Of a stretch of DNA of 62,376 bases, positions 8,488 through 53,067 are shown piece after piece (the first letter of the stretch is position 1; the number at the start of each line of letters is the position of its first letter). The stretch comes from an uncultured Bacteroidales bacterium. Lineage in GTDB: Bacteria; Bacteroidota; Bacteroidia; Bacteroidales; UBA932. Made by a program: the position numbers and the translations under genes. The notes under the pieces were generated by a model. It did not search any database, was not told where the DNA came from, and saw only the letters and a list, made by a program, of their open reading frames with translations. The DNA is taken from the NCBI GenBank assembly GCA_905233345.1, contig CAJODQ010000010.1:1-62376 (forward strand), written 5' to 3'.

Positions 8488-8495
8488 ATAATCTA

Positions 8496-8503
8496 CAAAG
8501 ATA
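8496..8503 (-). promoter_or_regulatory. -7 promoter box TATCTTTG for trmO operon
   Basis: TATCTTTG on the minus strand ends 8 bases before the trmO ATG and lies just past the umuC stop codon. Confidence 0.62.
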
Positions 8504-8509
8504 GTTATT

Positions 8510-9775
8510 TTATTTCACCGTCACCTTCGGAATCTCGCTCCAGCGGGTGGTGCGGTGGGGCGACTGCTGCTCGCGGGCGCTCTGCACCTGGCCGTCGCCC
8601 TGGATGCCGAAGAGGACGGAGCCGCGGCCGTAGGTGGCGTTGATGGCGTCGATGGCCTGGGAGAGGCGCGCGTCACGGGCATCGGTGTCGGGGTCGCGGA
8701 AGAGCGAGCGCGGATGCCCGTCCTTGGGAACGACGCGCGTAAAGACCACGCCGGCCTTCTTGTAGCCGTAACGCGGGTTGAAAAAGGTTCGGACCGCGTC
8801 GGCCGCCGCCACGACCACGGCGGCATGGTCGTCGGTACCGTCGGGAAAGAGCACCAGCTGGCTCGCCAGGGTCTGCGGATCATCTTCGTGGAATCGGTTG
8901 GTCATGGCGAACGCCACCATCTCGAGTGCCAGAGAGCCCTGCCGCCGCAACTTCGTCACGGCGGACTCGGCGAAGGTCGCCACCTGGCTGCAGAGTTCGC
9001 CGACATCACGGATTTCCTTAGCGAAACTGCGGGAGACGCAGATGGTCTGCTTCGGCTCGATGTAATCCTCGAATTCCACGCAGGGCACGCCCTGCAATTC
9101 CTTCCAGGTGCGCCAGCCTGGCAGCGCGAACTGCTTCCGGACATCATATTCCTTCAACTGCACATAATCCCAAGCCGTGTTTACACCCAGCAGCGCAAGT
9201 TTCTTCACGGAGCGCCGCCCGATGCCCCAGACATCCGCCACGGGGAAGCGGCGCAGCACTTTCTCGATATCCTGGGGACGGTGCATGTAGCAGCCACCCT
9301 GCAGTTTCGGGTATTGCTTGCAGAGCTTCGATGCGATCTTGGCCAGGGTCTTGGTCGGGGCGATGCCCACAGACACGGGAATGCCGGTCAGCTTGCGGCA
9401 AGCCCGCGAGATTTCGCGCGCATAGGCCGCAAAATCATCTCTCTCCACGCCGCGCAGGTCCAGGAACGACTCGTCGATGGAATACTGCTCGACCGAAGGA
9501 GCGAAGGTCCGCAGCACCTGCTGGACCCGGTGTGACATATCGCCGTAGAGCGCAAAATTCGATGAGAACACCGCCACGTGGTGCTTTTCCACGATGTCGC
9601 GAATCTTGAAGAGCGGCGCGCCCATCGCAATGCCCAGCGCTTTGGCCTCGTTGCTGCGGGCCACGGCACAGCCGTCGTTGTTGCTCAGCACGATGACGGG
9701 CTTCCCCTCCAGATCGGGACGGAACACCCGTTCGCACGAGGCGAAGAAGTTATTGCAGTCGGCCAGGGCGAACAT
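8510..9775 (-). CDS. umuC: Y-family DNA polymerase UmuC
   Basis: Error-prone translesion polymerase of 421 residues. Catalytic and fingers motifs are ADCNNFFASCERVFRPDLEG at the N-terminus, SNNDGCAVARSNEAK, and YSIDESFLDL near residue 100, with the metal-binding Asp and Glu. It then has the helix-hairpin-helix thumb (VADVWGIGRRS), a little finger domain, and a DUF4113-like C-terminal segment. Length is normal. It starts 2 bases after the umuD stop, so UmuD'2C can be made from a single SOS-type message. No LexA operator was recognised by eye. Confidence 0.95.
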   Translation of the reverse strand: MFALADCNNFFASCERVFRPDLEGKPVIVLSNNDGCAVARSNEAKALGIAMGAPLFKIRDIVEKHHVAVFSSNFALYGDMSHRVQQVLRTFAPSVEQYSIDESFLDLRGVERDDFAAYAREISRACRKLTGIPVSVGIAPTKTLAKIASKLCKQYPKLQGGCYMHRPQDIEKVLRRFPVADVWGIGRRSVKKLALLGVNTAWDYVQLKEYDVRKQFALPGWRTWKELQGVPCVEFEDYIEPKQTICVSRSFAKEIRDVGELCSQVATFAESAVTKLRRQGSLALEMVAFAMTNRFHEDDPQTLASQLVLFPDGTDDHAAVVVAAADAVRTFFNPRYGYKKAGVVFTRVVPKDGHPRSLFRDPDTDARDARLSQAIDAINATYGRGSVLFGIQGDGQVQSAREQQSPHRTTRWSEIPKVTVK

Positions 9776-9777
9776 CG

Positions 9778-10197
9778 CTAGGCTTTCTTGATGATGTAAG
9801 TCACGACACCCCAGATCACAAAGTCGTTGTCGGGGCCGACCGGGATGGGCTTGAATTTCGTATTGTGTTCGTTGCAGGGCAGCAGCACGGCACCTTCGGC
9901 ACCGATGGCCACGCGCTTGACCGTGAACTCCCCGTCGATGAAACAGACGGCTTTGCAGTCGCTGTACGGCTCCACAGAGCGGTCAACAATCAGGATGTCC
10001 CCCTCGTCCATGTCGGCGTCGACCATCGACACGCCGTCCACCTGAAAGAAAAAGGTGGAGGCGGAATGCCGCACCAGCAGCTTCACAAGGTCGAGTTTCT
10101 CGCGCACCTCTTCGGCTGGCGAAGGAAAGCCCGCCTTGATGGCGCCGACCAGGATGCTCTCGAACGAATCAGAATCAGTTATCGGATGGGGTTGCAT
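9778..10197 (-). CDS. umuD: UmuD-like S24 autoprotease subunit of DNA polymerase V
   Basis: Protein of 139 residues with the LexA/UmuD peptidase fold. The Ala-Gly self-cleavage site is in IKAGFPSP near residue 20. The nucleophilic Ser is in DGVSMVDADMDEGDILIVDRS near residue 57, and the general-base Lys is in FTVKRVAIG near residue 93. RecA-stimulated self-cleavage gives UmuD', the accessory subunit of UmuC. The start MQPHPITDSD at 10197 is chosen because a -7 box ends 4 bases upstream; longer readings run antisense through the HAD gene. umuC follows directly. Confidence 0.92.
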   Translation of the reverse strand: MQPHPITDSDSFESILVGAIKAGFPSPAEEVREKLDLVKLLVRHSASTFFFQVDGVSMVDADMDEGDILIVDRSVEPYSDCKAVCFIDGEFTVKRVAIGAEGAVLLPCNEHNTKFKPIPVGPDNDFVIWGVVTYIIKKA

Positions 10198-10201
10198 AGC
10201 A

Positions 10202-10209
10202 CAAAGGTA
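10202..10209 (-). promoter_or_regulatory. -7 promoter box TACCTTTG for umuDC, near-leaderless
   Basis: TACCTTTG on the minus strand ends 4 bases before the umuD ATG, so transcription would begin at the start codon. It is divergent from the plus-strand box at 10224-10231. Confidence 0.65.
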
Positions 10210-10223
10210 CATAAAAATATTCG

Positions 10224-10231
10224 TATCTTTG
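10224..10231 (+). promoter_or_regulatory. -7 promoter box TATCTTTG for HAD phosphatase/ABC-F
   Basis: Perfect TAnnTTTG box 23 bases before the ATG at 10255. The short intergenic space with umuD carries two back-to-back promoters. Confidence 0.62.
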
Positions 10232-10254
10232 CCGCAAATACATGCACGAATCCC

Positions 10255-10863
10255 ATGATCCGCAACATCATCTTTGACTTCGGCCAAGTCCTCGTGGACT
10301 GGAATCCGCACTACCTGTTCGATCCCTATTTCGGCGATCCCGACAAGGCGACCTGGTTTCTGGATCACATCTGCACGAACGAGTGGAACCGCCAGTTTGA
10401 CGCCGGAAAACCTTTCGCCGAAGGCATTGCTGAGCTGAAGGCCGAATTCCCGGAATGGACCCGCGAAATCGATGTATACTGGTCGGAATGGACGAAGATG
10501 ATGGGCGGCCCCATACCGGGCATGTACGAACTCGTGGCCGACCTGAAAGCCGCAGGATACGGTGTGTACGGCCTGACCAACTGGTCTTCGGAAACCTTCT
10601 ACCAGATCGAGAAGTACTATCCGGTCTTCGCCCTGCTCGACGGAAAAGTGGTTTCCGGCGACGTACGGCTGCTGAAACCCGATGCCGCCATCTTCCACTG
10701 CCTGCTCGACCGCTACGGCCTGAAGGCCGAAGAATCGGTCTTTATCGACGATACGCTCTCCAATGTAGAGGGCGCCCGCGCCACCGGCCTCTCCGGTATC
10801 CATTTCAAGGATGCGGAGACGCTGCGGAAAGCATTGCACGCCAGCCTGCCCCATCCATTCTGA
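10255..10863 (+). CDS. HAD family hydrolase (subfamily IA, YihX-like)
   Basis: Soluble phosphatase of 202 residues. Motif I is IIFDFGQVLVDWNP with nucleophilic Asp8. A helical cap follows (about residues 20-85), then motif II GLTNWSS with the conserved Thr, Lys in motif III (RLLKPDAAIF), and motif IV ESVFIDDTLSNVEGA. The FDFGxVLVDWNP start and the TNW motif place it with YihX-type sugar-phosphate phosphatases; the physiological substrate is unknown. The ATG at 10255 directly begins the motif-containing strand. The ABC-F gene starts 4 bases after its stop. Confidence 0.85.
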   Translation: MIRNIIFDFGQVLVDWNPHYLFDPYFGDPDKATWFLDHICTNEWNRQFDAGKPFAEGIAELKAEFPEWTREIDVYWSEWTKMMGGPIPGMYELVADLKAAGYGVYGLTNWSSETFYQIEKYYPVFALLDGKVVSGDVRLLKPDAAIFHCLLDRYGLKAEESVFIDDTLSNVEGARATGLSGIHFKDAETLRKALHASLPHPF

Positions 10864-10867
10864 AACA

Positions 10868-12748
10868 ATGGCCTCCTACCTGCAGATCGAGAACATTTCC
10901 AAGTCGTACGGGCCGAAAGTCCTGTTCGACCACATCGGCTTCAATGTGAACGAAGGCGACAAGATCGCCCTGATCGCGCCCAACGGCACCGGAAAGACCT
11001 CGCTCATGCGCATCCTCGCCGGAAAAGACAAATCCGACTCCGGCGGCAAGATCACCTTCCTGCAGGAAATCCGCATCGCGTTCCTGGAACAGGATTACGA
11101 CTTTGATCCCGAAGCCACCCTGCTCGACCAGGTGCTCAGCGGCAGCACGCCTTTCCTGAAAGATCTCGACGACGCGGGCCGCTTCGAATACGAACACCGC
11201 ATCATCCGCATCCTCACCGAGTTCGGCCTCAGGCCCGACCAGCAGATGAAGGAACTCTCCGGCGGCGAAGTCAAGCGCGTGGCCATCACCCAGGTCCTCG
11301 CCCCCGAAGCCGACTTCCTCATCCTCGACGAGCCCACCAACCACCTCGATGTCGACGCCATCGAATACCTGGAGAACTACCTTCGCCGCTCTCGCTGCAC
11401 CCTTTTCATGGTCACCCACGACCGCTACTTCCTCGACCGCGTCTGCAACATCGTCATGGAGCTCGACCACGGCCAGATTTACGTGTACAAAGGTGATTAT
11501 GAGAACTATTTGGAAAAACGCGCCGAACGCATCGCCAACTACAACGCCGAGACCGACAAAGTCCGCAACCTCCTGCGCCGCGAACTCGAGTGGATGCACG
11601 CCACCCCCTGCGCCCGCACCGGCAAGGCCAAATACCGCAAACAAGCCTTCTGGGAACTGAAAGACCGCGCCGAACAGACCCACGCCGTCCGCCAACTGAC
11701 GATGGAAGCCCTCGAAGGCGCCACCCGCCTGGGCACGAAGATCATCGACTGCTACGACGTCGGCTTTTCCTATAGCGAGCGTAGCGGTGGGTGTGTTTTC
11801 GGTGAGCGAGCATTTTTTCGCGAGCGAAACGGAAACCAGAGCCGCGAAGCAAGCGATAAATGGTTAATCAAAGACTTCACGTATAAGTTTCAACGCTACG
11901 ACCGCATCGGCATCGTCGGGCGCAACGGCATCGGGAAGAGTACGTTTATTGATCTCCTCACCGGCGCCCTCGAACCCACTACCGGCCACATCGAACGCGG
12001 CGAATCCCTCAAAATCGGCTACTACCACCAAAGCGGCATCCAGTTCGACGAGCGCCAGACTGTCCTCGAGACCGTCAGTAACCTCGGATTGCTGAACCAG
12101 TTCCTGTTTCCCCACGACATGCTCAACAACCCCGTGGCGAAACTCTCCGGCGGCGAAAAACGCAGACTCTACCTGCTGACCATCCTCATGCAGCAGCCCA
12201 ACCTGCTGATCCTCGACGAGCCCACCAACGACCTCGATATCGTCACCCTCAACATCCTCGAGGAATACCTCCTTGACTTCAAGGGCAGCTTGATCGTCGT
12301 CTCCCACGACCGCCACTTCCTCGACCGCGTCGTCGACCACCTCCTCGTCTTCTGCGGCGACGGCCTGATCAAAGACTTTGTCGGCGGCTATACCGAATAC
12401 CGCACGTTTATCAAGGACTACGAGGCCGAACAGAAAAAGCAAGCGAAGTTGCGGGAGGATGCGCGTAGCAGCGATCGGTTTTCGGAGCCGCGAGCATTTT
12501 TTCGCGAGCGGGACGAAAACCGGAGCAGCGGAGCGCAAAAGAAACGGCTATCCTATAAGGAGCAACGCGAATTCGACGCCCTTGAGGCCGAACTGGAGAG
12601 CCTCAACGCAGAGAAAGCCGACATTGAAGCCCTGCTCGCCGCCGGCACCGCCAACTACGAAGAAATCCGCAAGGCCTCCGAACGCTACGAAGCCCTCAAA
12701 TCCGAACTTGACAAAAAAGAAACCCGCTGGCTCGAACTGAGCCTGTAG
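10868..12748 (+). CDS. ABC-F family ATPase (Uup-like) with two inserted repeat-encoded segments
   Basis: Cytosolic ribosome-associated ABC-F protein, 626 residues, with no membrane domain. ATPase 1 has Walker A APNGTGKTSLMRI (near residue 40), LSGGEVKR and ILDEPTNHLD. ATPase 2 has GRNGIGKSTFIDLL (near residue 354), LSGGEKRR and ILDEPTNDLD. A charged coiled coil ends the protein, as in Uup. Two segments, about residues 302-329 just before the second domain and 528-558 in the linker before the coiled coil, share the peptide AFFRER. They are encoded by related palindromic DNA (11774-11855 and 12452-12540). Bacteroidetes relatives as I know them pass almost directly from FSY to LIKDF at the first site. 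The ATG at 10868 begins MASYLQIENISKSYG. Confidence 0.92.
   Translation: MASYLQIENISKSYGPKVLFDHIGFNVNEGDKIALIAPNGTGKTSLMRILAGKDKSDSGGKITFLQEIRIAFLEQDYDFDPEATLLDQVLSGSTPFLKDLDDAGRFEYEHRIIRILTEFGLRPDQQMKELSGGEVKRVAITQVLAPEADFLILDEPTNHLDVDAIEYLENYLRRSRCTLFMVTHDRYFLDRVCNIVMELDHGQIYVYKGDYENYLEKRAERIANYNAETDKVRNLLRRELEWMHATPCARTGKAKYRKQAFWELKDRAEQTHAVRQLTMEALEGATRLGTKIIDCYDVGFSYSERSGGCVFGERAFFRERNGNQSREASDKWLIKDFTYKFQRYDRIGIVGRNGIGKSTFIDLLTGALEPTTGHIERGESLKIGYYHQSGIQFDERQTVLETVSNLGLLNQFLFPHDMLNNPVAKLSGGEKRRLYLLTILMQQPNLLILDEPTNDLDIVTLNILEEYLLDFKGSLIVVSHDRHFLDRVVDHLLVFCGDGLIKDFVGGYTEYRTFIKDYEAEQKKQAKLREDARSSDRFSEPRAFFRERDENRSSGAQKKRLSYKEQREFDALEAELESLNAEKADIEALLAAGTANYEEIRKASERYEALKSELDKKETRWLELSL
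11774..11855 (+). repeat. Intragenic palindromic repeat, copy 1, read in frame within the ABC-F gene
   Basis: Copy 1 of a roughly 80-base element. It shares with copy 2 an identical 21-base core at 11806-11826 (two GCGAGC-type blocks separated by six Ts). The core is flanked by imperfect inverted arms TTTTCG (11796-11801) and CGGAAACC (11830-11837). It is translated in the same frame as copy 2 to give AFFRER and adds about 28 residues at a loop before the second ATPase domain. Confidence 0.7.
12452..12540 (+). repeat. Intragenic palindromic repeat, copy 2, in the ABC-F linker
   Basis: Second copy. The identical core is at 12490-12510, inside a perfect inverted repeat GGTTTTCG (12477-12484) / CGAAAACC (12514-12521). 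Flanks match copy 1 over about 80 bases with substitutions and small gaps. It encodes about 30 linker residues, including AFFRER. Confidence 0.7.
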
Positions 12749-32080: not shown

Positions 32081-32153
32081 GCCACTTTAGCTCAGTCGGT
32101 AGAGCAGCGCATTCGTAACGCGCAGGTCGGCAGTTCAAGTCTGCCAAGTGGCT
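32081..32153 (+). tRNA. tRNA-Thr(CGU)
   Basis: A 73-base cloverleaf. Acceptor stem GCCACTT pairs with AAGTGGC. The D stem is GCTC/GAGC with loop AGTCGGTA. The anticodon loop TTCGTAA gives anticodon CGT, and the T stem GGCAG/CTGCC has loop TTCAAGT. The last pair of the anticodon stem (A111 with C119, offset 32000) does not match. CCA is not encoded; the discriminator is T. It is followed at once by a strong terminator. Confidence 0.95.
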
Positions 32154-32155
32154 CG

Positions 32156-39647: not shown

Positions 39648-39947
39648 TCACCGTAAGAAGCTGGCCGAAAGGCCTGTCATGTCAAATACCTCCTGGACCG
39701 TGTCGGTCACTTTCGTGATCGAGAAAGAGCCTCCATTCCTCGTGACAGCCTGCTGGAAGGCCACGAGGATGCGCAGGGCCTTGGAAGACATGTAATCCAG
39801 TTTCGAAAGGTCCATTTCGACTTTCGTATCCTTGCGCTCCATCAAAGGCTCGATGTCACGCTGGAACTGTGCGCTCGTGTCCGTATCCAGTTCACCCTGG
39901 ACAGATACGATCACTACCCCGTTTTTTTCTTCGATGATCGTTTTCAT
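39648..39947 (-). CDS. STAS-domain anti-sigma-factor antagonist
   Basis: Single STAS domain of 99 residues. The phosphorylatable Ser is in LDYMSSKALRILVAFQQAV near residue 57. Such proteins, dephosphorylated by an RsbU-type phosphatase, switch partner proteins in sigma-factor or polysaccharide-export control. It overlaps the phosphatase gene by 4 bases (ATGA), strong evidence for joint function. No RsbW-type kinase gene is adjacent. Confidence 0.88.
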   Translation of the reverse strand: MKTIIEEKNGVVIVSVQGELDTDTSAQFQRDIEPLMERKDTKVEMDLSKLDYMSSKALRILVAFQQAVTRNGGSFSITKVTDTVQEVFDMTGLSASFLR

Positions 39948-41248
39948 ACTATTTTGATATAAATAATTGCAATATCGTCATTCTGCAAGGCGTTGCCGCG
40001 GAAGGCCGCCAGCGTATCCAGCAGGGATTGGCAGGCCGCCTCGCTGGAGATGGCGGGATCCAGCCCGTTCATCCATTCCTGCAGCCGCTTCTCCCCGAAG
40101 AAGGAGCGGTCCGCTCCGCGCGCCTCGGTCACGCCGTCCGTATACAGCAGCACACGGTCTCCGTGGTGCAATTGCACGGTCTGCGTATGATAGGGATAAT
40201 CCCGGTCCAGGCCGGCGAGCAGCTGCGAATCCTGGTCAAGAAAGTCCCCGTTGACCAGCGTCCGCGTATGCCCGGCATTGCAGTATTCCATTTTCAGCGT
40301 TTCCGCATCGATGTGTCCCAGGAACAGCGTACAGAGCATCTCGTACTCCGAATTGTCACAGATCAGGCAGTTCAGTTCCTTCATCAGTTCACAGACAGGA
40401 ACCTCGCCGCGGGTACGGGAATGAATAAAGGAACTGATCGTAAACATCAGCAGCGCGGCTGTCGTGCCCTTGTCCGACACATCGCCGATTACGTACTGGA
40501 ACTTGCCGTCCTGCATCCCGAAACGATAGATGTCGCCGCCCACCTCGCGGGCCGGCCGGAGCACGGCATGCGAATCGAAAAAGGAATTCTTGGGAAAGAC
40601 CGTCGTCACTGCTTTCTGCTGCAGATCGCGTGCCTCGTTGAGCTCGTTTTCAGCCAGGCGCTTGCGTTCAAGGACACGTTCCACGACAGGAATGATCCAG
40701 AACCACGAGACAGCCAGCAGCAGCAGGAAAAGGAGGACCAGCATCATGATAAAGTCTTTCGCTGTCTCCTCGCGATCACCGAAAATATAATCATAGTCGT
40801 AGACGCCGATCAATTCCAGGGGACGTGTCGGGAAGGGATGGATGATGATGAAGCAGCGGTCGCCCCAGACGTCCGCCAGCCAGCAGGTACCCGTTTTGTC
40901 AAGTTGCTTGACCTTCTTCATCTTCAAGGTACGCCCCGCGGCAAAAGAAGGCGCGATGACTTCACCTTCCTTGTCCCTCACCACATAGGAATACTCTCTC
41001 TCTTCGTGCTGCACGCTTGAAACCAGTTCCAGGTAGGCGAAGCAGTCCTTGTCTCCCTGGTTCATCCGTAACTCGAGATACGGAGCAATGGTCTTCAGAT
41101 CGTCCTCCAGATCTTCGTAATTCAGCCTGTAGGAGTGTTCCAGCGAGTCATGCAGCACCCACAGGGTAACACCCGTCGTCAACAAGCCATAAAGGGCCAG
41201 CAACAAGATAATCAGCAGGCGTGGAGATTCAGATATCCGCTTTTTCAT
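39944..41248 (-). CDS. Membrane-anchored PP2C/SpoIIE (RsbU-like) serine phosphatase
   Basis: Protein of 434 residues. A membrane helix (about 10-32), an extracytoplasmic sensor segment (33-165), a second helix (about 168-190) and a short coiled linker with LAENELNEARDLQQKAVTTVFPK are followed by a PP2C domain. Its metal-binding residues lie in REVGGDIYRF, IGDVSDKGTTAALLM and NDDIAIIYIKI. It dephosphorylates the STAS partner encoded next to it. The gene is divergent from the NRPS across 160 bases, so the pair could sense an external signal and influence the cluster; that link is inference. Confidence 0.88.
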   Translation of the reverse strand: MKKRISESPRLLIILLLALYGLLTTGVTLWVLHDSLEHSYRLNYEDLEDDLKTIAPYLELRMNQGDKDCFAYLELVSSVQHEEREYSYVVRDKEGEVIAPSFAAGRTLKMKKVKQLDKTGTCWLADVWGDRCFIIIHPFPTRPLELIGVYDYDYIFGDREETAKDFIMMLVLLFLLLLAVSWFWIIPVVERVLERKRLAENELNEARDLQQKAVTTVFPKNSFFDSHAVLRPAREVGGDIYRFGMQDGKFQYVIGDVSDKGTTAALLMFTISSFIHSRTRGEVPVCELMKELNCLICDNSEYEMLCTLFLGHIDAETLKMEYCNAGHTRTLVNGDFLDQDSQLLAGLDRDYPYHTQTVQLHHGDRVLLYTDGVTEARGADRSFFGEKRLQEWMNGLDPAISSEAACQSLLDTLAAFRGNALQNDDIAIIYIKIV

Positions 41249-41381
41249 TTCCGAAATTTACGAATTAATCGTAATCCGAGCAAATTTTAATTGTCTTTTA
41301 TATACATCCGTTGGCCTGATTCCGTTTCATATGCTCATAAATAGTGGGCAATCCGCGACAAGCACAAGTCTTTTTTTTGTT

Positions 41382-41389
41382 ATATTTGA
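41382..41389 (+). promoter_or_regulatory. -7 promoter box TATATTTG for the NRPS
   Basis: TATATTTG 20 bases before the NRPS ATG at 41410, after a run of Ts. An AGGAG lies at 41404-41408, unusually close to the start codon. Confidence 0.62.
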
Positions 41390-41409
41390 AAGTTAAAATC
41401 CTCAGGAGT

Positions 41410-44400
41410 ATGAGTTATCCCCTGTCCCAATCTCAACTAAGCATCTTCCTGGCTTGCCAGGGACTGAATGAGAACGACGGCAACTATCAGCAGGCATCGT
41501 TGTACCGCCTTCCCGACAGCGTTGACATCAAACGGCTCGCTACAGCCCTCGAAGCTGTGATCCAGGCACATCCCTATGTCCTTTCCCGCATCGTTCAGGA
41601 AGAAGGAATGCCGCGGATAGAAGATCATTCTACCGACGAGTGGCATCCGCTCGTGAAGGAAATCACCTCCATTGACGAGGTTCGCCCGACTTTCTGCCGG
41701 ACGATGAACCTCCTCAAGGATCCGCTGCTCCGCATCGAGATCTACAAAACCAAAAAAGGAAATTATCTCTATTGTGATTTACACCATATTATTTTCGACG
41801 GTGCCTCCACCCTCTTGCTGACAGACCACCTGACGCGTGCGTATGCGGGGGAAGAACTGCCTCCGGAGCCCCTCAACGGCTTTGACATTGCTGCCCGGGA
41901 AGAGGCGCAGCGACAGGGAGAGACCTACGAAGAAGCGAAAAAGTGGTATGCCGGGACCTTCGGGGAAGGCGCCCAGCTCGACTCGAACATCCGGCCCGAC
42001 GTGTACGACACCCAGCCGCAGCCCTATCGCGAACTGCTCATCGACCTGCCGGTCAAGGGTTCTGTCGTCAAGGCACTCCTGGCCAAATACCGCTGCGCCG
42101 ACAGCGTGCTTTTCACAGCCGCCTTCGGCGTGACCCTCGCCGCCTGGAGCGCCGAGCCGAAAGCCGCTTTCAGCACCATCTGGAACGGCCGGAAAGGCCC
42201 TTCGATGAACGCCCTCACCATGAGCGTCCACACCATGCCCGTCCTGGTGAACGCAGACCCCTCCCAGACGGTGACCGGCCTGCTCGAAGCGCTCCGCCAG
42301 CAGATCAGCGGATCGCGCAGCCGCGCCTTCTACTCTTTCGCCGACTGCGTCCGTGATTTCGACTTCAATCCACCCATCAATTTCGGTTATCAGGGCAAAT
42401 TCGCCGCCGCCACCGTGACCATCCGGCTGGAAGGAGTAGACATTCCCGCCGAAGACCTGCGTACCAACCCGCCGGGTCTCGGCCTTACGGTCGAACTCTT
42501 CGGACACGACGACGGCAGCCAGTTGCTCCGTTTCTGGCACCGGCCCGACCAATACTCGGAAAAGATCCTCCGCCAGTTCGCGGAAAGCTTCTCCGCCGTG
42601 CTCATTTCCATGGAAAAGGCCGAAACGCTGGCTGACCTGCAATATGTTACGGCGAAACAGCGAAAACAGTTGGATCGTTTCCAGCCCGCTGAAGCGGCCA
42701 TCGATACCGGGAAGACGGTCCTGGACTACTTCAGGGAATGTGTGTCCAGGACGCCCGAAAAAACAGCGGTGGTCTACGGCGACAAACGGCTCACCTACGC
42801 GGAGCTGGACCGGCTCTCCGACAACCTGGCCGCTGAAATCAACAAGACCGTGAAGCCCGGCGGCGTGGTGTCGATCATCCTGGGGCGCAATGAGCACATG
42901 GTCACCACGCCCGTGGCAGCCATCAAGGCAGGCTGCACCTACCAGCCCCTCGACCCCACCTATCCCTCCGAACGCCTGGGCTATATGGTGCAGGACGCGA
43001 AAGCGGGCCTGCTGATCGCTGACCCGGGGCTTGAGCAACTCGTGGAAGGCTACAAAGGCCCCGTCCTCCTCACCGACAAGATAGCCGGACTGCCGAAAGG
43101 CAAGGGCAAGGGTGCGCCCAGGGCGGATGACTGCATCATTCTGCTCTATACCAGCGGCACCACGGGAAAACCCAAGGGCTGCATGCTCTCCCACACAAAC
43201 CTCCTGACCTTCTGCCTCCGGTCCAACAAGCAGTTTGAACTCGGGCCGGACTCCGCCATGACGGGCTATGCCAGTTTCGGCTTCGACGCCTTCATGGGCG
43301 ATATGTGGCGGACCCTGTGCGCCGGCGCCACACTTCACATCATTCCCGAAGACATCCGGCTCGACCTGGTGGCCCTGAACGAATACTTTGAGAAGAACGG
43401 TGTCACCCACGCCTTCATGACCACCCAGGTGGCCACCCAGTTCGCCCTCACGTTCCCGCGCTGCAAGGGTCTCAAAGTCCTGTCAACCGGGGGCGAGAAG
43501 CTGGCCAGCATCACGCCCCCGGGCTTCAGGTTCTACAACTGCTACGGCCCGACCGAATGCTGCTGCTACGTGGTGAGCAAACTCGTTGAGAAAAAGGAAA
43601 CCGACATCCCCATCGGACGTCCCTCGGAGGGCATACACGTCCATATCGCCACAAAGAGCGGGCAACTGCTGCCGGCCGGCGCGGCCGGCGAACTGCTGGT
43701 CGCCGGACGGCAAGTGGGCATGGGCTACCTGGGCCTGCCTGACAAGACCGGCGAGGTTTTCATTCCCAACCCCTATGAAAAGGAGGCTGCCTACAGCCGT
43801 ATCTACCGTACAGGCGACATCGTGCGCTGGCGCGAGGACGGGGACATCGAATTCATCGGCCGCAAGGACTCCCAGGTGAAGATCCGCGGCTTCCGCATCG
43901 AGCTCAAGGAAATTGAAACCGTAATCCTGGCGTATCCGGGCATCACCGACGTCACCGTGCAGGCCTTCGACGAAGAGGGTGGCGGGAAGTATCTGGCCGC
44001 CTATGTCGTGTCGGAACAGCCGGTCGACGTCGAAAAGCTGAACGCCTTCATCCTGGAGCAGAAACCGCCGTACATGGTGCCGGCCGTTACGATGCAGATC
44101 GACAAGATTCCGCTCAACGTCAACCAGAAGGTTGACCGCAAGGCCTTGCCCAAGCCCCAGCCGCAACAGCAGGAGCACAAAGCTGTCGACGCTCCTTTCA
44201 ACATCCTCGAACAGGAGATCGCCGACTTGATCCGCGACACGGTCCATATCGAGGGCTTCTCGCTCACCGAACCGCTGCTCTACTACGGCCTGAGTTCCCT
44301 CTCCGCCCTGCGTCTGGCCACGGAGCTCTACAAGAAATACGGCGTCCAGATGAACATGGACTCCTTCGTCAAGACCGCGTCGCTGCAGACCATCGAGAAT

Positions 44401-47400
44401 GAGGTGATCAAAGCGCTGATCGCGGGCCGCGGTGCGGCCGCACAGAGCGCGATGCAGCAGGCCGACACGCCGCAGCCGCTGACCTTCCAGCAGACCGGCG
44501 TCTATTTCGACTGCATGAAGGCCCCGCAGGAGACCATGTATAACATTCCCATGTTGTGGACCTTCCCCGGGGAAGTATCGGCCCAGGCCCTGAAGAAAGC
44601 CGTCGAAAAGGTGCTCGCCGCTCATCCTGTCCTGCAGTCTCACTTTGAGCAGAAAGACGGGCAGATCTGCCAGGTGCCTTCCGACGTGCCCATCCCGGTG
44701 AGCATCAACGAAACGGACATCCAGTCCCGCAGAGAGAATTTCATCCTTCCCTTCAACCTGGGCAAGGGCCCGCTGGGCAAGGTGGAAATCGTGCCCGGAA
44801 AGGACAAGACCTACCTGCTGAGCGACTTCCACCACCTGGTGTTCGACGGCCGCAGCTACGACATCTTCATCGAGGAAGTCTGTGCTGCGCTGGAAGGCAG
44901 GGAAATCGCCCCTGAAAACTACAACTACTTCCAGTATGCCGCCTGGCAGAAGGAATCCGAAGGCAGCGAGGCCTTTGCCCAGGCCCAGGACTTCTTTGCC
45001 CGGCAGATGGGCGGGCTGGAAAGTCCTTCGACCGTCATTCCCGACCTCGAACACGGCGACCATCCCGGCCGCGAGGTATTCCTGAGAAAGTTTGTCGAAG
45101 CCGACATCCATCCGCGCTGCAAAGAACTGGGTATCTCGGCCGCCAGCTTCTACCTGGGCGCCGCCTACCTCACCCTCAGCGCCTACAACGCCAACAAGAA
45201 AGTATACATCTGCACCGTCAGCAACGGTCGCGGCAACCTGAAGACAGCCGACAGCTTCGGCATGTTCGTCAATACCCTGGCCCTCGCCGGGGACTGTTCC
45301 ATCGAGCGCACCGGAGACTTCCTCAAACAGTGCGACCAGGACTTCCAGGCCACCCTGCAGCACCAGGACTACCCCTTCGCCAGGATTGCCGCCGATTTCG
45401 GCTTCCAGCCGCAGGTGATGCTGGCCTATCAGGTAGGCGTCCTGGCCGACTACCGCGTGAACGGACAGCCCGTCACTGGCGAGAACCTGGACGCCGGCGC
45501 GCCCAAGTTCCCGCTGAGCATCTATATCGACGGCAGCGAGGGCAAGGAAGCCATCGTGCTGGGCTACGACAACAGCAAATACAGCGAAGCCCTCATGCAG
45601 GCCTTCGCCGACGCCATGGAATGCGTGGTAAGGGGGCTGCTGCAGCATGAGAAGCTCTCCGAGGTGCCGTACGTGGACGGCGAACGCCTGAAAGAGCTGG
45701 ATGGTTTCAACCACTACAGCCAGCAGGTGGATGCCTCCCAGACCATCGTCAGCCTCTTCCGGGAGGAGGCCCGCAGGACACCCGACGCGCCCGCCGTGTG
45801 CTACGAAGACTATCGCTGCACCTATGCGGAGGCCGATGCCCTCACCGACCGCATCGCCGCCGCCATTGCCGCCAGGGGCCTGAAGAACGAAGACGTGGTC
45901 TCGGTGCTCATCGGCCGCAGCCAATGGATGCCGCTGGCCTCGCTGGGTATCCTCAAGGCCGGCTGCGCCTACCAGCCGTTGGATCCGTCCTACCCGGAGG
46001 AGCGCCTCAACTTCATGGTGACCGACGCATCAGCCCGCCTGGTCATCGCAGAGAAGGAACTCCTGCCCGTGCTGAAAGACTACAAGGGACCCGTGCTTAC
46101 CACCGATGAACTGGAGTCCCTGCCAGAAGGTCCGGTTCCGGAAGGTCCCAAACCGGAAAACCTCTTTATCCTGCTGTACACCTCCGGCTCCACGGGCGTG
46201 CCCAAGGGCGTGATGCTGGAGCACCACAACCTGGTGAACTTCTGTGCCTGGTACCGGAAGTACTTCGACCTGAACGAGCACAGCCGGGCATCGGCTTATG
46301 CCAGCTATGGCTTCGACTGCTGCCAGATGGACATGTATCCGACCCTCACCACGGGCGCCTGCCTGTACATCATCCCCGAAGAGACCCGCCACGACATGAG
46401 CCTGCTGAACAGTTTCCTCGTCAACAACGGTATCACCCACAGCTTCATGACCACCCAGGTGGGCGTGATGTACGCCAGGAACTACCCGGACAACCCGACC
46501 CTGCAGCACCTCACGGTGGCCGGCGAAAAGCTGGTTTCCATGGACCCGCCTTCCTACGGCTTCCACAACGGCTACGGCCCCACAGAATGCACCATCCTCT
46601 GCACCATCTTCGACGTGAAGAAACGGGAGGCCAACATCCCCATCGGCCATGCGCTGGACAACACATATATGTATGTGGTGGACAAAGACTTGCGCCGTGT
46701 GCCCGTGGGCGCGGACGGCGAGTTGCTCATTACCGGCGACGCCTGCGTGGGCCGCGGCTACCTGAACCGTCCCGAAAAAACGGCCGAGGTGTTCATTGAG
46801 AATCCCTTCCGGAAAGGCATGCGGGCCTATCGCAGCGGTGACATCGTCCGCTGGCGCACCGACGGCAACATCGAGTATGTGGGCCGCAACGACGGCCAGG
46901 TGAAAATCCGCGGCTTCCGCGTCGAGACCAAGGAGGTGGAGGCTGTCATCCGGGAATTCCCCGGCGTGAAAGACGTGACCGTCCAGGCCTTCGACGCATC
47001 CTCCGGCGGCAAATTCATCGCCGCCTACGTGGTAAGCGAGGGCAATCTCGACACGAAAGCCCTGAGCGCATTCATCCTCGAGCGCAAGCCGCCCTACATG
47101 GTGCCCGCTTCCATCAACGCCATCGACAGCATCCCGCTCAATGTCAACCAGAAAGTGGACCGAAGGGCGCTGCCCGCCCCCGTGCTTTCCGCTTCCGACG
47201 ACTATGTGGAGCCGGCTACCGATACGGAGCGCACGCTCTGCGAGGTGTTTGCACACGTGCTCGATGTGGAGAAGGTGGGGGCGCTCGACAACTTCTTCGA
47301 TATGGGCGGTTCCTCGCTCATGGTGACCAATGTCATGGTGGAAGCCGAGAAGCGCGGCCTCAAGTTCAGCTACGCCGAAGTCTTCATCTTCCCTACCGCA

Positions 47401-48681
47401 CGTGCCCTTGCCGCTCACATCACGGGAGAGAAGGTCCCCGACGCAGCGGGAGCTGAAGCCAGCGCTCCGGCGGAAGACGTGGCGCATTACGACTACACGG
47501 CCATCGACCAGCTGCTGGCCGCCAATACGCTGGAATCCCTCGCAGCCGGCAAGATGCAGAAGCTGGGCAGGAACATCCTGCTGACAGGCGCCACCGGCTT
47601 CCTTGGGATCCACCTGTTGCGGACACTCATCGACTGTACGCCCAAGAGCACGGTGATCTGGTGTCTGCTGCGCGGCAAGGGAGCGAACCTGACGGCCGAG
47701 CAGCGCCTCGCCGGGATGCTCATCTACTATTTTGAGCAGAAATACCGCAAGCTCATCGGCACGCGCATCCGGGTGATCGAGGGCGACATCACCAGGCCCG
47801 CCTCGTTCGAAGCCCTCCAGGCCACCGGCACCTCCTTCGACCTGGTCATCAACTGCGCCGCCAACGTGAAGCATTTCTCCAAGGGCAACGACATCGAGGA
47901 GATCAACTACACTGGCGTGAAGAATCTCGTGGATTTCTGCGAGAAGGCCGGAGCCCGGTTCATCCAGGTCTCCACCGAGAGCATCTGCGGCATGACCGGG
48001 GACGGCCAGCCCAAATTGTTCACCGAACAGCAGCTCTGGATCGGCCAGAACACCGACAACCAGTATATCCACTCCAAGTTCCTGGCCGAACGCCATGTGC
48101 TGGAGCACGTGGCGGCAGGTACGCTGCGGGCCAAGATCATGCGCGCCGGCAACCTGTCTCCCCGTGCGGAAGACGGTGAGTTCCAGGCCAATTTCAATGC
48201 CAACACCACGATGGGACGCCTCAAGGCATACCGGATGCTGGGAGCCTTCCCGTATCCGCTGCTCGACATGAAGATGGAATTCTCCCCCATCGACGAGACG
48301 GCGCTCGCCATCGCGCTGTTGGCAACTACGCCTGACGCGAACTGCGTGTTCCACATATCGAACGACCACCTGCTGCCGATGGACGACATTCTCTCGCGCA
48401 TCCACCGGAGCGACGGTTCACCGATTGCGTATGTGGAACTCCCCGACTTCGCCGCCCGCATGGAAGCGGCCAAGGCAGACCCGGAGAAGGCCAAGGTGCT
48501 TTCGAGCATCATTGCCTACGCCAGCGCCCCCGACGGCCCCCATATGATGCCCAACGTAGCGTCCACCGCCTACACGATGCAAGTGCTGCACCGGCTCGGC
48601 TTCCGCTGGAATGCCACGGCCAGCGACTACGTGGACATGATCTTCGAGATGCTGGCTTCCCTCAGATATTTTGACATTTGA
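41410..48681 (+). CDS. Dimodular non-ribosomal peptide synthetase C-A-T-C-A-T-R with reductase release
   Basis: Megaenzyme of 2423 residues. C1 (about 1-430) has the active motif HHIIFDG at 125-131. A1 (about 460-905) has YTSGTTGKPKG at 580 and YRTGDIVRW. T1 has phosphopantetheine Ser963 in GLSSL. C2 (about 1020-1450) has HHLVFDG at 1141-1147. A2 (about 1470-1915) has YTSGSTGVPKG at 1590. T2 has Ser1969 in GGSSL. The terminal reductase (about 2030-2423) has TGATGFLG at 2059 and YIHSK with Tyr2219 and Lys2223. The N-terminal C domain suggests an acyl or other starter cap, and R suggests NAD(P)H release as an aldehyde, which may be reduced further or cyclise. No thioesterase, PPTase or exporter is adjacent. 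The start MSYPLSQSQ is chosen for the AGGAG and promoter; the upstream frame lacks similarity. Confidence 0.95.
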   Translation: MSYPLSQSQLSIFLACQGLNENDGNYQQASLYRLPDSVDIKRLATALEAVIQAHPYVLSRIVQEEGMPRIEDHSTDEWHPLVKEITSIDEVRPTFCRTMNLLKDPLLRIEIYKTKKGNYLYCDLHHIIFDGASTLLLTDHLTRAYAGEELPPEPLNGFDIAAREEAQRQGETYEEAKKWYAGTFGEGAQLDSNIRPDVYDTQPQPYRELLIDLPVKGSVVKALLAKYRCADSVLFTAAFGVTLAAWSAEPKAAFSTIWNGRKGPSMNALTMSVHTMPVLVNADPSQTVTGLLEALRQQISGSRSRAFYSFADCVRDFDFNPPINFGYQGKFAAATVTIRLEGVDIPAEDLRTNPPGLGLTVELFGHDDGSQLLRFWHRPDQYSEKILRQFAESFSAVLISMEKAETLADLQYVTAKQRKQLDRFQPAEAAIDTGKTVLDYFRECVSRTPEKTAVVYGDKRLTYAELDRLSDNLAAEINKTVKPGGVVSIILGRNEHMVTTPVAAIKAGCTYQPLDPTYPSERLGYMVQDAKAGLLIADPGLEQLVEGYKGPVLLTDKIAGLPKGKGKGAPRADDCIILLYTSGTTGKPKGCMLSHTNLLTFCLRSNKQFELGPDSAMTGYASFGFDAFMGDMWRTLCAGATLHIIPEDIRLDLVALNEYFEKNGVTHAFMTTQVATQFALTFPRCKGLKVLSTGGEKLASITPPGFRFYNCYGPTECCCYVVSKLVEKKETDIPIGRPSEGIHVHIATKSGQLLPAGAAGELLVAGRQVGMGYLGLPDKTGEVFIPNPYEKEAAYSRIYRTGDIVRWREDGDIEFIGRKDSQVKIRGFRIELKEIETVILAYPGITDVTVQAFDEEGGGKYLAAYVVSEQPVDVEKLNAFILEQKPPYMVPAVTMQIDKIPLNVNQKVDRKALPKPQPQQQEHKAVDAPFNILEQEIADLIRDTVHIEGFSLTEPLLYYGLSSLSALRLATELYKKYGVQMNMDSFVKTASLQTIENEVIKALIAGRGAAAQSAMQQADTPQPLTFQQTGVYFDCMKAPQETMYNIPMLWTFPGEVSAQALKKAVEKVLAAHPVLQSHFEQKDGQICQVPSDVPIPVSINETDIQSRRENFILPFNLGKGPLGKVEIVPGKDKTYLLSDFHHLVFDGRSYDIFIEEVCAALEGREIAPENYNYFQYAAWQKESEGSEAFAQAQDFFARQMGGLESPSTVIPDLEHGDHPGREVFLRKFVEADIHPRCKELGISAASFYLGAAYLTLSAYNANKKVYICTVSNGRGNLKTADSFGMFVNTLALAGDCSIERTGDFLKQCDQDFQATLQHQDYPFARIAADFGFQPQVMLAYQVGVLADYRVNGQPVTGENLDAGAPKFPLSIYIDGSEGKEAIVLGYDNSKYSEALMQAFADAMECVVRGLLQHEKLSEVPYVDGERLKELDGFNHYSQQVDASQTIVSLFREEARRTPDAPAVCYEDYRCTYAEADALTDRIAAAIAARGLKNEDVVSVLIGRSQWMPLASLGILKAGCAYQPLDPSYPEERLNFMVTDASARLVIAEKELLPVLKDYKGPVLTTDELESLPEGPVPEGPKPENLFILLYTSGSTGVPKGVMLEHHNLVNFCAWYRKYFDLNEHSRASAYASYGFDCCQMDMYPTLTTGACLYIIPEETRHDMSLLNSFLVNNGITHSFMTTQVGVMYARNYPDNPTLQHLTVAGEKLVSMDPPSYGFHNGYGPTECTILCTIFDVKKREANIPIGHALDNTYMYVVDKDLRRVPVGADGELLITGDACVGRGYLNRPEKTAEVFIENPFRKGMRAYRSGDIVRWRTDGNIEYVGRNDGQVKIRGFRVETKEVEAVIREFPGVKDVTVQAFDASSGGKFIAAYVVSEGNLDTKALSAFILERKPPYMVPASINAIDSIPLNVNQKVDRRALPAPVLSASDDYVEPATDTERTLCEVFAHVLDVEKVGALDNFFDMGGSSLMVTNVMVEAEKRGLKFSYAEVFIFPTARALAAHITGEKVPDAAGAEASAPAEDVAHYDYTAIDQLLAANTLESLAAGKMQKLGRNILLTGATGFLGIHLLRTLIDCTPKSTVIWCLLRGKGANLTAEQRLAGMLIYYFEQKYRKLIGTRIRVIEGDITRPASFEALQATGTSFDLVINCAANVKHFSKGNDIEEINYTGVKNLVDFCEKAGARFIQVSTESICGMTGDGQPKLFTEQQLWIGQNTDNQYIHSKFLAERHVLEHVAAGTLRAKIMRAGNLSPRAEDGEFQANFNANTTMGRLKAYRMLGAFPYPLLDMKMEFSPIDETALAIALLATTPDANCVFHISNDHLLPMDDILSRIHRSDGSPIAYVELPDFAARMEAAKADPEKAKVLSSIIAYASAPDGPHMMPNVASTAYTMQVLHRLGFRWNATASDYVDMIFEMLASLRYFDI

Positions 48682-49604: not shown

Positions 49605-52600
49605 ATGGCAACCCCGACCATGAGATTGTCTTCCCTCCCCGGCTCATTCCGCAGTCTTCTGATGCTGAGTATCCTGACGGTTGCCTGCTCATCGCAGGGC
49701 CCTTCCACGAACTTCGCATTGCGGCACCGCGCCTATCACTCCAGTGCCATCGACTTCAACGCCACGGCCCAGCTGGCCGTGGACGGCATCATCGAGACCG
49801 ACATGCCCTACTGGATCGAAGTGTGGAAGAATGAGGACGAAATGCTGTCGAAAATCGAGCACGACGTGCCTTTCGACCCGCGGCCGTGGAGCACGGTGAC
49901 CGCAGAAGGGCCGCACGCTGAATTGTCTGTGCGCACCTTCGGCTTCCGGGAGCCGGTCGACCGGATCACCATGACCTTTTCGGCAGGTCTGCGGGAAGGG
50001 GTGCAACAGAGTCCGTTTACAGCCAGCCTGATGAGCCAGGACGGCAGCGGACAATGGAAAGTGGAGAAACGCTTCCAGGGCGTCTACGCCGGAAAGGCCC
50101 TCACCCTGCCCTGGGATGCCCCGCGCAGGATGGCGCCCGAGCGCTGGAAATTCATCGTGGACATGCCGGAAGCCGAGACGGTCGTCTGGCAGGAATGGCT
50201 CTTTTTCCGGGACGGCAAACGGCTGACGATGCTCGCCTCGGAGCATTTCAGCAGTGTCTGGACATCTGCCACGGGCGACCGGGAATGGCTGTTGGTCGAT
50301 TTGGGGCAGCCGCGCAGTTTCCGGGAGATCCGCCTGCACTGGCTCAACGCACCGAAGCACGGCGCGCTGCAGGTCGGAACGGATTCCTCCAGCTGGCACA
50401 CCGTGGCGGAGCTGGGAGGCAGCGGCGCGGTGCGGTGCGACACGCTGCGCATAAGCGGTCGCGGCCGCTGGATACGGATCCTGCTCGACGCTTCGACCAA
50501 CGGGATGCCCTACATGCTCAGTGAATTAGAAGTGCTGGGACGCGGAAGGCAGAAAGCGCTGGTTACGCCCGAAGGCTGGCCCGTGGACGCCTCAGTCCAT
50601 CACGACCTCGACCATCGCATCGACCTCGACCGGAACTGGCTCGTCGCCCGTCAGCCGGAGGCCAACGATCCCGGGAGCTGGATTCCCGCCTCGGTACCCG
50701 GCACTGTCCTGTCGAGCTACCTGGACGGCGGCATGCTCCCGAATCCGAATTTTGGTGACAATCAGCAGTATATCAGCGAGTCCTACTTCCTGTCGCCCTT
50801 CATCTACCGCACCCGCTTCGCCCTCCCCCGCAGCTACCGCTCCGGCGTTGAAGACGAACGCATGCTGCTGCATTTCGACGGTATCAACTGGAAAGCCATC
50901 GTCTTCCTGAACGGATCATCTGTCGGTATCATTGAGGGCGCTTTTACCGATGCCACCTTCGACATCACGCCCCTGCTGACGGCGGACAACCGGCTGGAAG
51001 TAATTGTCATGCCGCCGGGCCATCCGGGCATGACCAAGGCGAACACCCTGGAGCGCTGCGCCCCCAACGGCGGGGTGCTGGGTGCCGACAACCCCACTTT
51101 CCACGCCTCCATCGGCTGGGACTGGATTCCGACCATCCGCGGCCGCAACATGGGCATCTGGAACGACGTGTGGCTCGAACGCATCGGTCCCGTGCAACTC
51201 ACGGAGCCCACCGCAACGCCCCTCTTCGCGGCGCTGGAGACCCTTCCGCCCATCCTCGACACCAGCCAGGTGCGGATCCGCCTGGGCGCCACGCTGGTCA
51301 ACCGCGCAGAATATGCCGTGGAAGCCCTGTGGGAAGGCAGCTACGGTGATGTCCCCTTCAGCCAGTCCGTCTGGCTGCCGGCGGGCGGATCCCAGCGCGT
51401 CACGACCGAAATCACCCTCAAGAACCCGCGGCTCTGGTGGCCCAACGGCTACGGCGAACCGCATCTCTACACGGTCGACATGCGTATTCGCGGCAGCGAT
51501 GCGCTCCGATTCCAGTCCGGTGTCCGTCGCTTCGACTACGACACTTCCGACGGTACGCTACGCATCTGGATCAACGGCCGTCGGCTGGTGGGGCGTGGCG
51601 GCAACTGGGGTTTCAGCGAAAGCAACCTGCGCTACCGGGCGGAAGATTATGAGCGGGCGATGCAGCTGCACCGCCACGAGAACTTCAATCTGGTCCGCAA
51701 CTGGGTGGGCATGACCGGCGACGAAGAATTCTATGAGGCCGCCGACCGCAACGGCATCCTCGTATGGCAGGATTTCTGGCTGGCCAATCCCGCCCGCCGA
51801 CGAGGCTCTGTTCATGGCCAATGCCGAAAACCTGCTGAAACGCATCCGCAACCACCCGAGCCTCCTGCTCTGGTGCGGACGCAACGAGGGCTATCCGCCC
51901 GTCTCGCTCGACACGGCGCTGCACGCGCTCGTGGCCCGCGAAGATCCACAGCGCTATTACATCTCCTCATCGGCCGACGAGGTGGTGTCGGGCCGGGGAC
52001 CCTATTACCGCCTCCCGGCCAAAGACTACTGGCAACTCGACCAGCGCCCCGGGTACCGCAACGAGAGCCGCATGTTCCACAGCGAACGCGGCATGCCCAA
52101 CTTCCCGAACTACGAGAGCCTGATCGAAATGATGCCGGCTTCCCAGGCCTGGCCGCCGACCCGCCTCTGGGGCGTCCATGACTTTGCGCTGCAGAGCGCC
52201 CAGCGGGGACAGACCTTCATCGATGCCGTCAACGCCTACTTCGGACCTTCCCCCGACGGCGAGACCTTTGCCCAACGGGCCCAATGGGTCAACTACGACG
52301 GATACCGGGCCATGTTTGAGAGCCGCAGCCGCGAGCGGCGCGGACTCCTGCTCTGGATGAGCCACCCGGCCTGGCCTTCCATGGCCTTCTGCACCTACGA
52401 CTGGTTCCTCGACGGCACAGCCGCTTACTACGCCTGCCGCAAAGCCTGCGAGCCCCTGCACATCCAGTGGAACCCGGCCAGCCGGCTGGTGGAGGTCGTG
52501 AACTACAGTGCGGGCGACCAGCACGGGCTGCGTGCCGTGGCCACGCTCTACACGGAAGACGGCCAGGCAGCCAGCCGCCGCGACACGACGCTGGCCCTGC

Positions 52601-53067
52601 GGGAAGATACGACCATGGAGCTCTTCTCCCTGGATTTCCAACGCGCCGGTCTCAACGGCAATCCGCGCTGGGGCCACCAGGTCTGCTTCCTCCGCCTCCA
52701 GTTGTTCAACGGGGCCGAAGTGGTGTCGCACAACGACTACGCTATCGCGGCGGAAGAAGACAACTACCGGCAGCTCAACGGTCTGCCCAACGCCCATGTC
52801 AAACTGTCCCGCAAGCGCGCCCGCAACGGACAGCAGGCCGCCGTCACGGTGACCAACACCTCCGACGTTCCGGCCCTGATGCTTCACTTCGTAGCCCGCC
52901 GCGGCGACGGCACCCGCCTGCTTCCCGCCCTCTGGTCGGACAACTACATCCACCTGATGCCCGGCGAAGAACGCGTGCTGCACTTCGAAACCCCGGGAGA
53001 CAACGCACATGCACTCGTCGAGGTCCGCGGTTTCAATGTCCCGGTCAGCGAGATACTCGTACGCTAA
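49605..53067 (+). pseudogene. GH2 family glycosidase lipoprotein, frameshifted (exo-beta-glucosaminidase/beta-mannosidase type)
   Basis: Two frames together encode about 1150 residues. The first part (49605 to about 51794) has a lipobox (LTVAC), a discoidin-like domain (VDGIIETDMPYWIEVW) and GH2 sugar-binding and sandwich domains (HFDGINWKAIVFLNG), then FYEAADRNGILVWQDFWLANPA. The protein then continues only in the next frame from about 51796: ADEALFMANAENLLKRIRNHPSLLLWCGRNEGYPP, with the acid/base Glu, and FHSERGMPNFPNYESL, with the likely nucleophile Glu. The break is in CCCGCCCGCC at 51789-51798: one extra C, or loss of about 14 bases. A sequencing or assembly error is possible, in which case the gene is intact. 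Confidence 0.85.

Follow-up and report, generated by a model that had tools for sequence, protein, structure and literature searches.

NRPSs that make N-acyl dipeptide aldehydes in gut bacteria have the domain order C-A-T-C-A-T-R (C, condensation; T, carrier; R, reductase) with an intact first C domain, and gut peptide aldehydes are candidate protease inhibitors. We know of no control system for their production. Partner switches composed of a SpoIIE/RsbU-type protein, a STAS protein and a HATPase are represented by SpoIIAA/AB, RsbUVW and SiaABCD. Gut commensals have been described as makers of N-acyl dipeptide aldehydes (Guo et al. 2017, per the available text of PMC8210680), and ruminopeptin of Ruminococcus bromii is described as a gut dipeptide aldehyde in the available text of PMC12327764; in both accounts the products are released by a reductase, and some carry a stabilising N-acyl tail. 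AusA/PznA of Staphylococcus is presented in the accessible portion of PMC12153313 as a six-domain A-T-C-A-T-R enzyme in which A1 takes Val and A2 takes Tyr/Phe/Leu, and it stops at the aldehyde (portions of PMC8210680 and PMC12153313). The available part of a 2010 report on Methanobrevibacter ruminantium M1 (PMC2812497) places serine phosphatases, an anti-sigma factor antagonist and MatE near mru0068, an NRPS with two C-A-T modules, a first C included, to which a figure legend assigns a thioester reductase domain. A bulk catalogue of NRPS clusters from the rumen covers Bacteroidota as well (PMC8241843, available text), and a term search of the main text of that paper returned no mention of aldehyde, phosphatase or sigma. 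A search of the open-access literature returned no paper joining NRPS, anti-sigma factor antagonist, SpoIIE and MATE; judged by title, PMC2812497 alone among the papers listed is relevant to the linkage.

The window analysed here is a 62,376-nucleotide stretch from an uncultured Bacteroidales bacterium of the ruminant gut and is contig C10 in a draft genome that totals 2.32 Mb in 68 contigs, with a completeness of 89.4% and a contamination of 3.2%. Its NRPS gene, NRPS1, belongs with the gut-bacterial NRPSs that release a dipeptide(-aldehyde) through a reductase, and is a Bacteroidales variant with a partner-switch pair. The original prediction had missed the recurrent linkage to a switch in Bacteroidales and the Lachnospiraceae order and the exchange of a C2-A2 unit. 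The N-acyl dipeptide-aldehyde kind itself was already known (PMC8210680 and PMC12327764, in the text available), and the original view of the system as uncharacterised is not supported.

Compared by description rather than by sequence, NRPS1 differs from the gut dipeptide-aldehyde NRPSs in its Bacteroidales host and its adjoining SpoIIE-STAS pair. The mru0068 system, again compared by description, differs from NRPS1 in being archaeal, in a terminal domain that the available text of PMC2812497 calls a thioesterase, and in its MatE gene. NRPS1 has the A-T-C-A-T-R order and the R motifs in common with AusA, and differs from it in an intact C1 (HHIIFDG versus HVSIFDD, at motif level), other A codes and the lack of an adjacent PPTase (AusB). 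The ~400-aa N-terminal region of AusA (L098), in which aa 26-184 match the C1 profile at 39.5 bits and the site reads HVSIFDD, is on this profile similarity a decayed condensation domain. The locus resembles the named partner switches in the conserved Asp residues of its PP2C protein, the invariant Ser of its STAS protein and the HATPase of related loci, and is unlike them in being tied to an NRPS, with the HATPase fused to a MATE exporter in several Lachnospiraceae-order loci.

Architecture of NRPS1 and the role of C1

NRPS1 is a real gene on the plus strand, running from ATG 41410 to a stop ending at 48681; GTG 41344 is an alternative start, and ATG 41410 is preferred. The features of the locus are as follows.

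39648..39947, minus strand: STAS anti-sigma-antagonist-type protein, 99 aa, with a 4-base overlap with the SpoIIE gene (STAS, 66.1 bits)
39944..41248, minus strand: SpoIIE/RsbU-type PP2C phosphatase, 434 aa (SpoIIE Pfam, 134 bits)
41249..41409, no strand: divergent intergenic region, 161 bases, with TATATTTG at 41381-41388 on the NRPS side
41410..48681, plus strand: NRPS1, dimodular NRPS C1-A1-T1-C2-A2-T2-R, 2423 aa (Pfam, profiles, motifs)
41410..42684, plus strand: C1, intact N-terminal condensation domain with proposed N-capping role; HHIIFDG at 41782-41802
42697..44169, plus strand: A1, code DAGQSGCCYK
44197..44424, plus strand: T1 carrier
44461..45699, plus strand: C2 condensation domain, forming the left portion of the other-clade segment
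45727..47184, plus strand: A2, code DCMQTAGILK, with other-clade ancestry to ~aa 1860 (nt ~46990)
47221..47433, plus strand: T2 carrier
47542..48678, plus strand: R, NAD(P)-dependent thioester reductase

The predicted C-A-T-C-A-T-R order with its core motifs was borne out. Pfam detects Condensation, AMP-binding, AMP-binding_C and PP-binding twice each and NAD_binding_4 once, all above cut-off, and profiles made from the orthologues of NRPS1 segment it in the same order. The motifs are HHIIFDG in C1 (aa 125-131), GLSSL in T1 (aa 960-964), HHLVFDG in C2 (aa 1141-1147), GGSSL in T2 (aa 1966-1970) and, in R, TGATGFLG (aa 2059-2066), QVSTESI (aa 2186-2192) and YIHSK (aa 2219-2223). NRPS1 has the two A-T modules, internal C and terminal SDR-type R with Ser/Thr-Tyr-Lys of a reductase-terminated dimodular NRPS and, at motif level, the C-A-T-C-A-T-R order with intact first C of the gut N-acyl dipeptide-aldehyde NRPSs. 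R finds its best PDB sequence matches in NRPS R domains, 6vtj (186.9 bits) and the R of AusA (4f6c, 91.4 bits), and the R of MxaA (4u7w), which gives an alcohol, is also among the matches; the best matches agree with the predicted NRPS-type reductase.

The A1 code is DAGQ(S/T/Y/F)GCCYK in all 16 NRPS1 rows. For A2, DAMQSGGIFK occurs in 21 rows (13 NRPS1, 8 NRPS2 or diverged), DCMQTAGILK in the window and four near kin (L034, L035, L048 and L051), and a code differing from both in the diverged enzyme of G030 (L075). The same method gives DAFSLGGTFK and DAMQIGAVIK for A1 and A2 of AusA. Tentatively, the substrate of A2 in NRPS1 would be hydrophobic.

By the Condensation model, the only C domains in the window genome (89% complete) are the two of NRPS1. 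Among the neighbours scanned there is no PPTase, thioesterase or exporter, as had been predicted, and a tblastn of the whole window for MatE-HATPase returned no match; the one PPTase-family gene (PF01648) in the genome is elsewhere, on a different contig (G000:C5:19014). Nor did these neighbours include a gene for supplying the cap. An A-T-type protein of 812 aa, separate from NRPS1, is encoded at G000:C12:41941-43584 (L092 11897-14335); by eye it has a hydrolase-like end, and its neighbours resemble a TonB receptor and sensor kinases. Downstream of NRPS1, two overlapping frames at 49605-53067 together encode a GH2-type glycosidase, which is a single ORF of 1153-1158 aa in L034 and L035; the split appears to be either a pseudogene or a sequence error.

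HHxxxDG is found at C1 in 19 of the 23 rows compared; of the other four, AusA has HVSIFDD at this site, and a fragment and two NRPS2 rows lack the stretch. Both His, the Asp and the Gly are invariant across 16 aligned C1 domains (12 Bacteroidales, 4 Lachnospiraceae). Against five orthologues, dN/dS was 0.15-0.19 for C1 and 0.14-0.20 for A1, and it was 0.28 for C1 against the more distant L040; C1 is under purifying selection as strong as that on A1. A structure predicted for C1 from 16 sequences (pLDDT 88.2) has the complete C-domain fold. Foldseek ranks C domains first for this model, with CDA first-C and RzmA starter entries at ranks 16-42 and a PCP-E didomain at rank 44; these ranks do not type C1.

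A C-domain tree of 93 rows was constructed by a quick method with SH-aLRT support only. The window C1 and C2 fall into one 43-row family (SH-aLRT 98) that is separate from both the E rows and the C rows of Paenibacillus; within this family, C1 belongs to a 17-row clade (SH-aLRT 99) that also holds the C1 domains of G019, G029 and G030 and of three enzymes from Lachnospiraceae. C1 clusters with neither the E rows nor the DCL-position rows, the latter being plasmid first-C rows that mostly follow E domains and so represent DCL by position. The tree places C1 apart from these and with the Lachnospiraceae C1 domains, and holds no verified starter-C sequence against which the predicted capping type could be read. 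C1 has weak PDB sequence matches, the foremost being portions of PvdL and TycA with E domains in them; an E-domain identity was nevertheless rejected, as ten rows, mostly E by position, sit on a separate starred branch and the first pure E-domain entry in Foldseek is at rank 44.

The Lachnospiraceae clade-mates are A0-T-C-A-T-C-A-T-R enzymes, with A0-T preceding C1 in L052 and L055-L057. At the position of Asp235, which we take to be the amine-binding Asp of amino-acid-activating A domains, A0 carries Val in L052, L055, L056, L057 and L129 and Asp in L131; L130 lacks the stretch. A uniform role of A0 as acyl loader is ruled out by the Asp235 of L131, in which C1 may take an aminoacyl group. 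As A0 mostly lacks Asp235, C1 in most of the A0-T-bearing relatives probably receives a group other than an amino acid, which supports N-capping by C1 in NRPS1.

NRPS2, a paralogue of NRPS1, has the order A-T-C-A-T-R in L040, L046 and L054. It keeps just the second half of a decaying C1 in L063, L067 and L072, stands in tandem with NRPS1 in L040 and L047, and retains the R motifs in the rows checked. The occurrence in one genus of a putatively capped NRPS1 and an uncapped NRPS2 offers a way to test the role of the N-cap.

We infer the product, the acyl donor and the target of the switch, and think it rather probable that NRPS1 makes an N-capped, probably N-acyl, dipeptide aldehyde. C1 would attach a trans-supplied acyl group to the T1-bound amino acid, C2 would link this capped residue to a second, probably hydrophobic, residue on T2, and R would release the aldehyde by NAD(P)H reduction. 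Because the amine would be capped, the aldehyde could not cyclise to a pyrazinone. The intact site, the purifying selection and the clade shared with C1 domains that follow A0-T lend support to the capped product of the original prediction, short of proof. If C1 were instead structurally sound and idle, a free-amine dipeptide aldehyde would cyclise to a dihydropyrazinone/pyrazinone as with AusA. That would fit the AusA model NF047350 being the best-scoring NCBIfam match of NRPS1 (1021.4 bits, below the equivalog cut-off of 2500), the likeness of the relatives' A2 code DAMQSGGIFK to the DAMQIGAVIK of AusA, and neighbours devoid of a cap-supplying gene where scanned. An idle C1 should nevertheless decay, as the N-terminal C has in AusA and NRPS2, yet C1 keeps its site under selection like that on A1, and we regard idleness as unlikely.

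Smaller still is the chance that a separate carrier, such as that of NRPS2 where present, hands C1 an aminoacyl or peptidyl group, so that the product would be a tripeptide or longer aldehyde. The NRPS2-NRPS1 tandem of L040 and L047 and the amino-acid-type A0 before C1 in L131 speak for such a donor; NRPS2, with its R motifs, should however release its own chain, and the window genome, at 89% completeness, has no further C domain and is missing NRPS2 at the syntenic place. A comparably slim chance attaches to a four-electron reduction by R, which would turn the N-capped dipeptide aldehyde into an alcohol: the alcohol-making R of MxaA (4u7w) is among the matches, but that of AusA is closer, and AusA stops at the aldehyde (PMC8210680 and PMC12153313, in part). 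The capped dipeptide aldehyde is the best reading of the product.

The SpoIIE-STAS pair and related partner switches

NRPS1 had been predicted to form a single-gene cluster. This view fails, as a conserved STAS-SpoIIE pair (39648-41248) lies divergently upstream. D239, D256 and D371 of SpoIIE, the metal-binding Asp residues of a PP2C, are invariant in 11 of 11 rows. STAS has an invariant Ser55 (15 of 15 rows), the putative phosphosite. The N-terminal part of SpoIIE was modelled as long helices around a six-strand stretch, and may be read as a membrane-tethered sensor.

Matches to both SpoIIE and STAS occur upstream of 12 of 14 NRPS1 5' ends, counting those whose upstream DNA, NRPS2 excluded, extends for 1 kb or more; several of these are close kin and not independent. 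The loci with both are the window, L007 (STAS cut by the locus end), L034-L038 and L042-L046, the phosphatase of L045 being of SpoIIE-HATPase type. L016 has STAS without a SpoIIE match, L039 ends inside SpoIIE, and L041 and L047, where contig ends are near, match neither. Ahead of NRPS2, Pfam finds a Cache-SpoIIE-HATPase protein in L054, and L040 has a Cache-SpoIIE protein cut by the locus end. Cache-SpoIIE-HATPase-like proteins accompany STAS, by similarity, in L046 and the diverged L073 and L074, and L075 has MatE-HATPase, SpoIIE and STAS matches. The paralogue loci L062, L063 and L067 have neither a SpoIIE nor a STAS match.

In Lachnospiraceae, L056 has MatE-HATPase, NRPS, STAS and SpoIIE-HATPase in a row, L055 has MatE-HATPase, L057 has MatE-HATPase, STAS and a SpoIIE piece, and L052 has STAS and a SpoIIE match. 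Twelve genomes in a 295-genome sample of the order matched at 1e-200, that of L056 included. Among the other 11 matches, seven opened loci are R-terminated, L133-L135 hold different NRPSs, which lack R, and L115 was left out. L131 has MatE-HATPase, STAS, SpoIIE and HATPase; L132 has MatE-HATPase and SpoIIE, with a HATPase-like ORF by blast; L128 has STAS and HATPase, with the SpoIIE end below cut-off; L127 has MatE, with a HATPase match below cut-off; L136 has MatE; and L129 and L130, the latter nearly filling its contig, have none of these genes. A MATE exporter fused to an RsbW-type HATPase is encoded directly beside the R-terminated NRPS at L056 6205-8004, L131 43-1869 and L132 4499-6259.

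The window locus has no HATPase partner of the RsbW type. The sole PF13581 match in the genome, on contig C3, is the C-terminal part of a DAGK/YegS-type protein (L093 5833-7152) near a second SpoIIE gene. As the genome has five SpoIIE matches in all and the arrangement recurs in diverged lineages, chance adjacency of SpoIIE and NRPS1 is unlikely. A motif of ~28 bases at L093 13871-13898 occurs in six of six genomes searched, with many copies in most, as a dispersed repeat of the genus.

TAT-TTTG is kept just before the NRPS in 10 of 10 aligned intergenic regions, and no -33 TTTG was seen by eye. The element matches what we take to be the Bacteroidetes -7 element, which argues, only mildly, against the switch acting via an alternative sigma factor at the NRPS1 promoter.

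It is hypothesized that the pair constitutes a control circuit, in which membrane SpoIIE and STAS would act as a partner switch gating production or export on an extracytoplasmic signal, with the HATPase partner encoded off-locus. A bolder version, possible though doubtful, is that the switch directly gates dipeptide-aldehyde synthesis or export post-translationally, no sigma factor being needed, and that the module travels with the NRPS family while C-A units are swapped. An extracytoplasmic Cache-type sensor would drive SpoIIE to dephosphorylate STAS, and STAS would then bind the HATPase, which in Lachnospiraceae-order relatives would be the domain fused to the MATE exporter. The module would have spread through Bacteroidota and Bacillota and, on the 2010 annotation, also through Archaea, with C-A swaps changing the P1 residue of the inhibitor. 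Recurring in two phyla, or three if the 2010 report is counted, and with its kinase-like domain fused to an exporter in several loci, the switch makes for a testable control circuit.

Exchange of the C2-A2 unit and probable exchange of the cassette

NRPS1 is a natural chimera, in which the C2-A2 unit (aa ~1020-1860) was exchanged and differs in ancestry from the rest. Identity of the window to five orthologues (L037-L039, L042 and L043) is 68-75% for C1, 72-77% for A1, 54-58% for C2 and 72-75% for A2; against L040 the order is reversed, with 48, 64, 81 and 82%, respectively. In 60-residue steps, the identity pattern shifts near aa 1020 and aa 1860, with a further shift near aa 1900 in the G032 piece. 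The C1-A1-T1 tree joins the window and L034 with L007, L037-L039, L042 and L043 (support 99), and the R tree joins them with L007 (96). The C2 tree, by contrast, joins them with L040, L041, L045 and L047 (99), and it is this conflict, with support of 99 on each side, that points to exchange of the unit; the A2 tree places the window A2 weakly (47). The chimera is also present in L034 and the G032 piece and is independent of the window contig. The differing A2 code suggests a changed aldehyde (P1) residue, and an exchange with mapped breakpoints may serve as a natural guide for NRPS engineering.

The full gene is present in 10 of 39 other same-genus genomes (G001-G039) at 69-100% identity, large pieces (70-93%) in three more (G015, G027 and G032), and more distant versions in G019, G029 and G030. 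Twenty genomes of other genera in the family gave, among the matches listed, a best E-value of 1.4e-48, to an A-domain-sized region. A scan of public genomes returned 29 loci, 25 titled Bacteroidales or Bacteroidia and four Lachnospiraceae at 37-38%; many of the Bacteroidales/Bacteroidia titles name rumen, reticulum or omasum, and others give no source.

Compared per kb with G004, the window is 73-93% identical over 1-32 kb (25 of 32 values 82-90), 89-97% over 32-39 kb, 97-100% over 38-58 kb and 93-96% to the end; at another locus the two are 82% identical. The first step, at ~32,233, lies just past a tRNA-Thr gene (32081-32154) and is seen against several same-genus genomes. G024 is 89-95% identical to the window at 35-38 kb and 70-81% between 38 kb and the NRPS end, and G004 and G008 are 86-96% identical to the left of the cassette, 70-82% within it and 81-86% to its right. 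These profiles suggest that species have exchanged the cassette at a single site. Where compared, G004 and G033 show 94-97% identity, so the window contig may be chimeric through misassembly, affecting the identity steps against G004; the G004-G008 profile does not involve this contig, so the point on cassette exchange is independent of its assembly. G004 and G033 carry NRPS2 at a site whose syntenic counterpart in the window, 8487-8512, is without it, and there is a local rearrangement over 8.5-12.7 kb (window 8487-12746 versus L063/L064).
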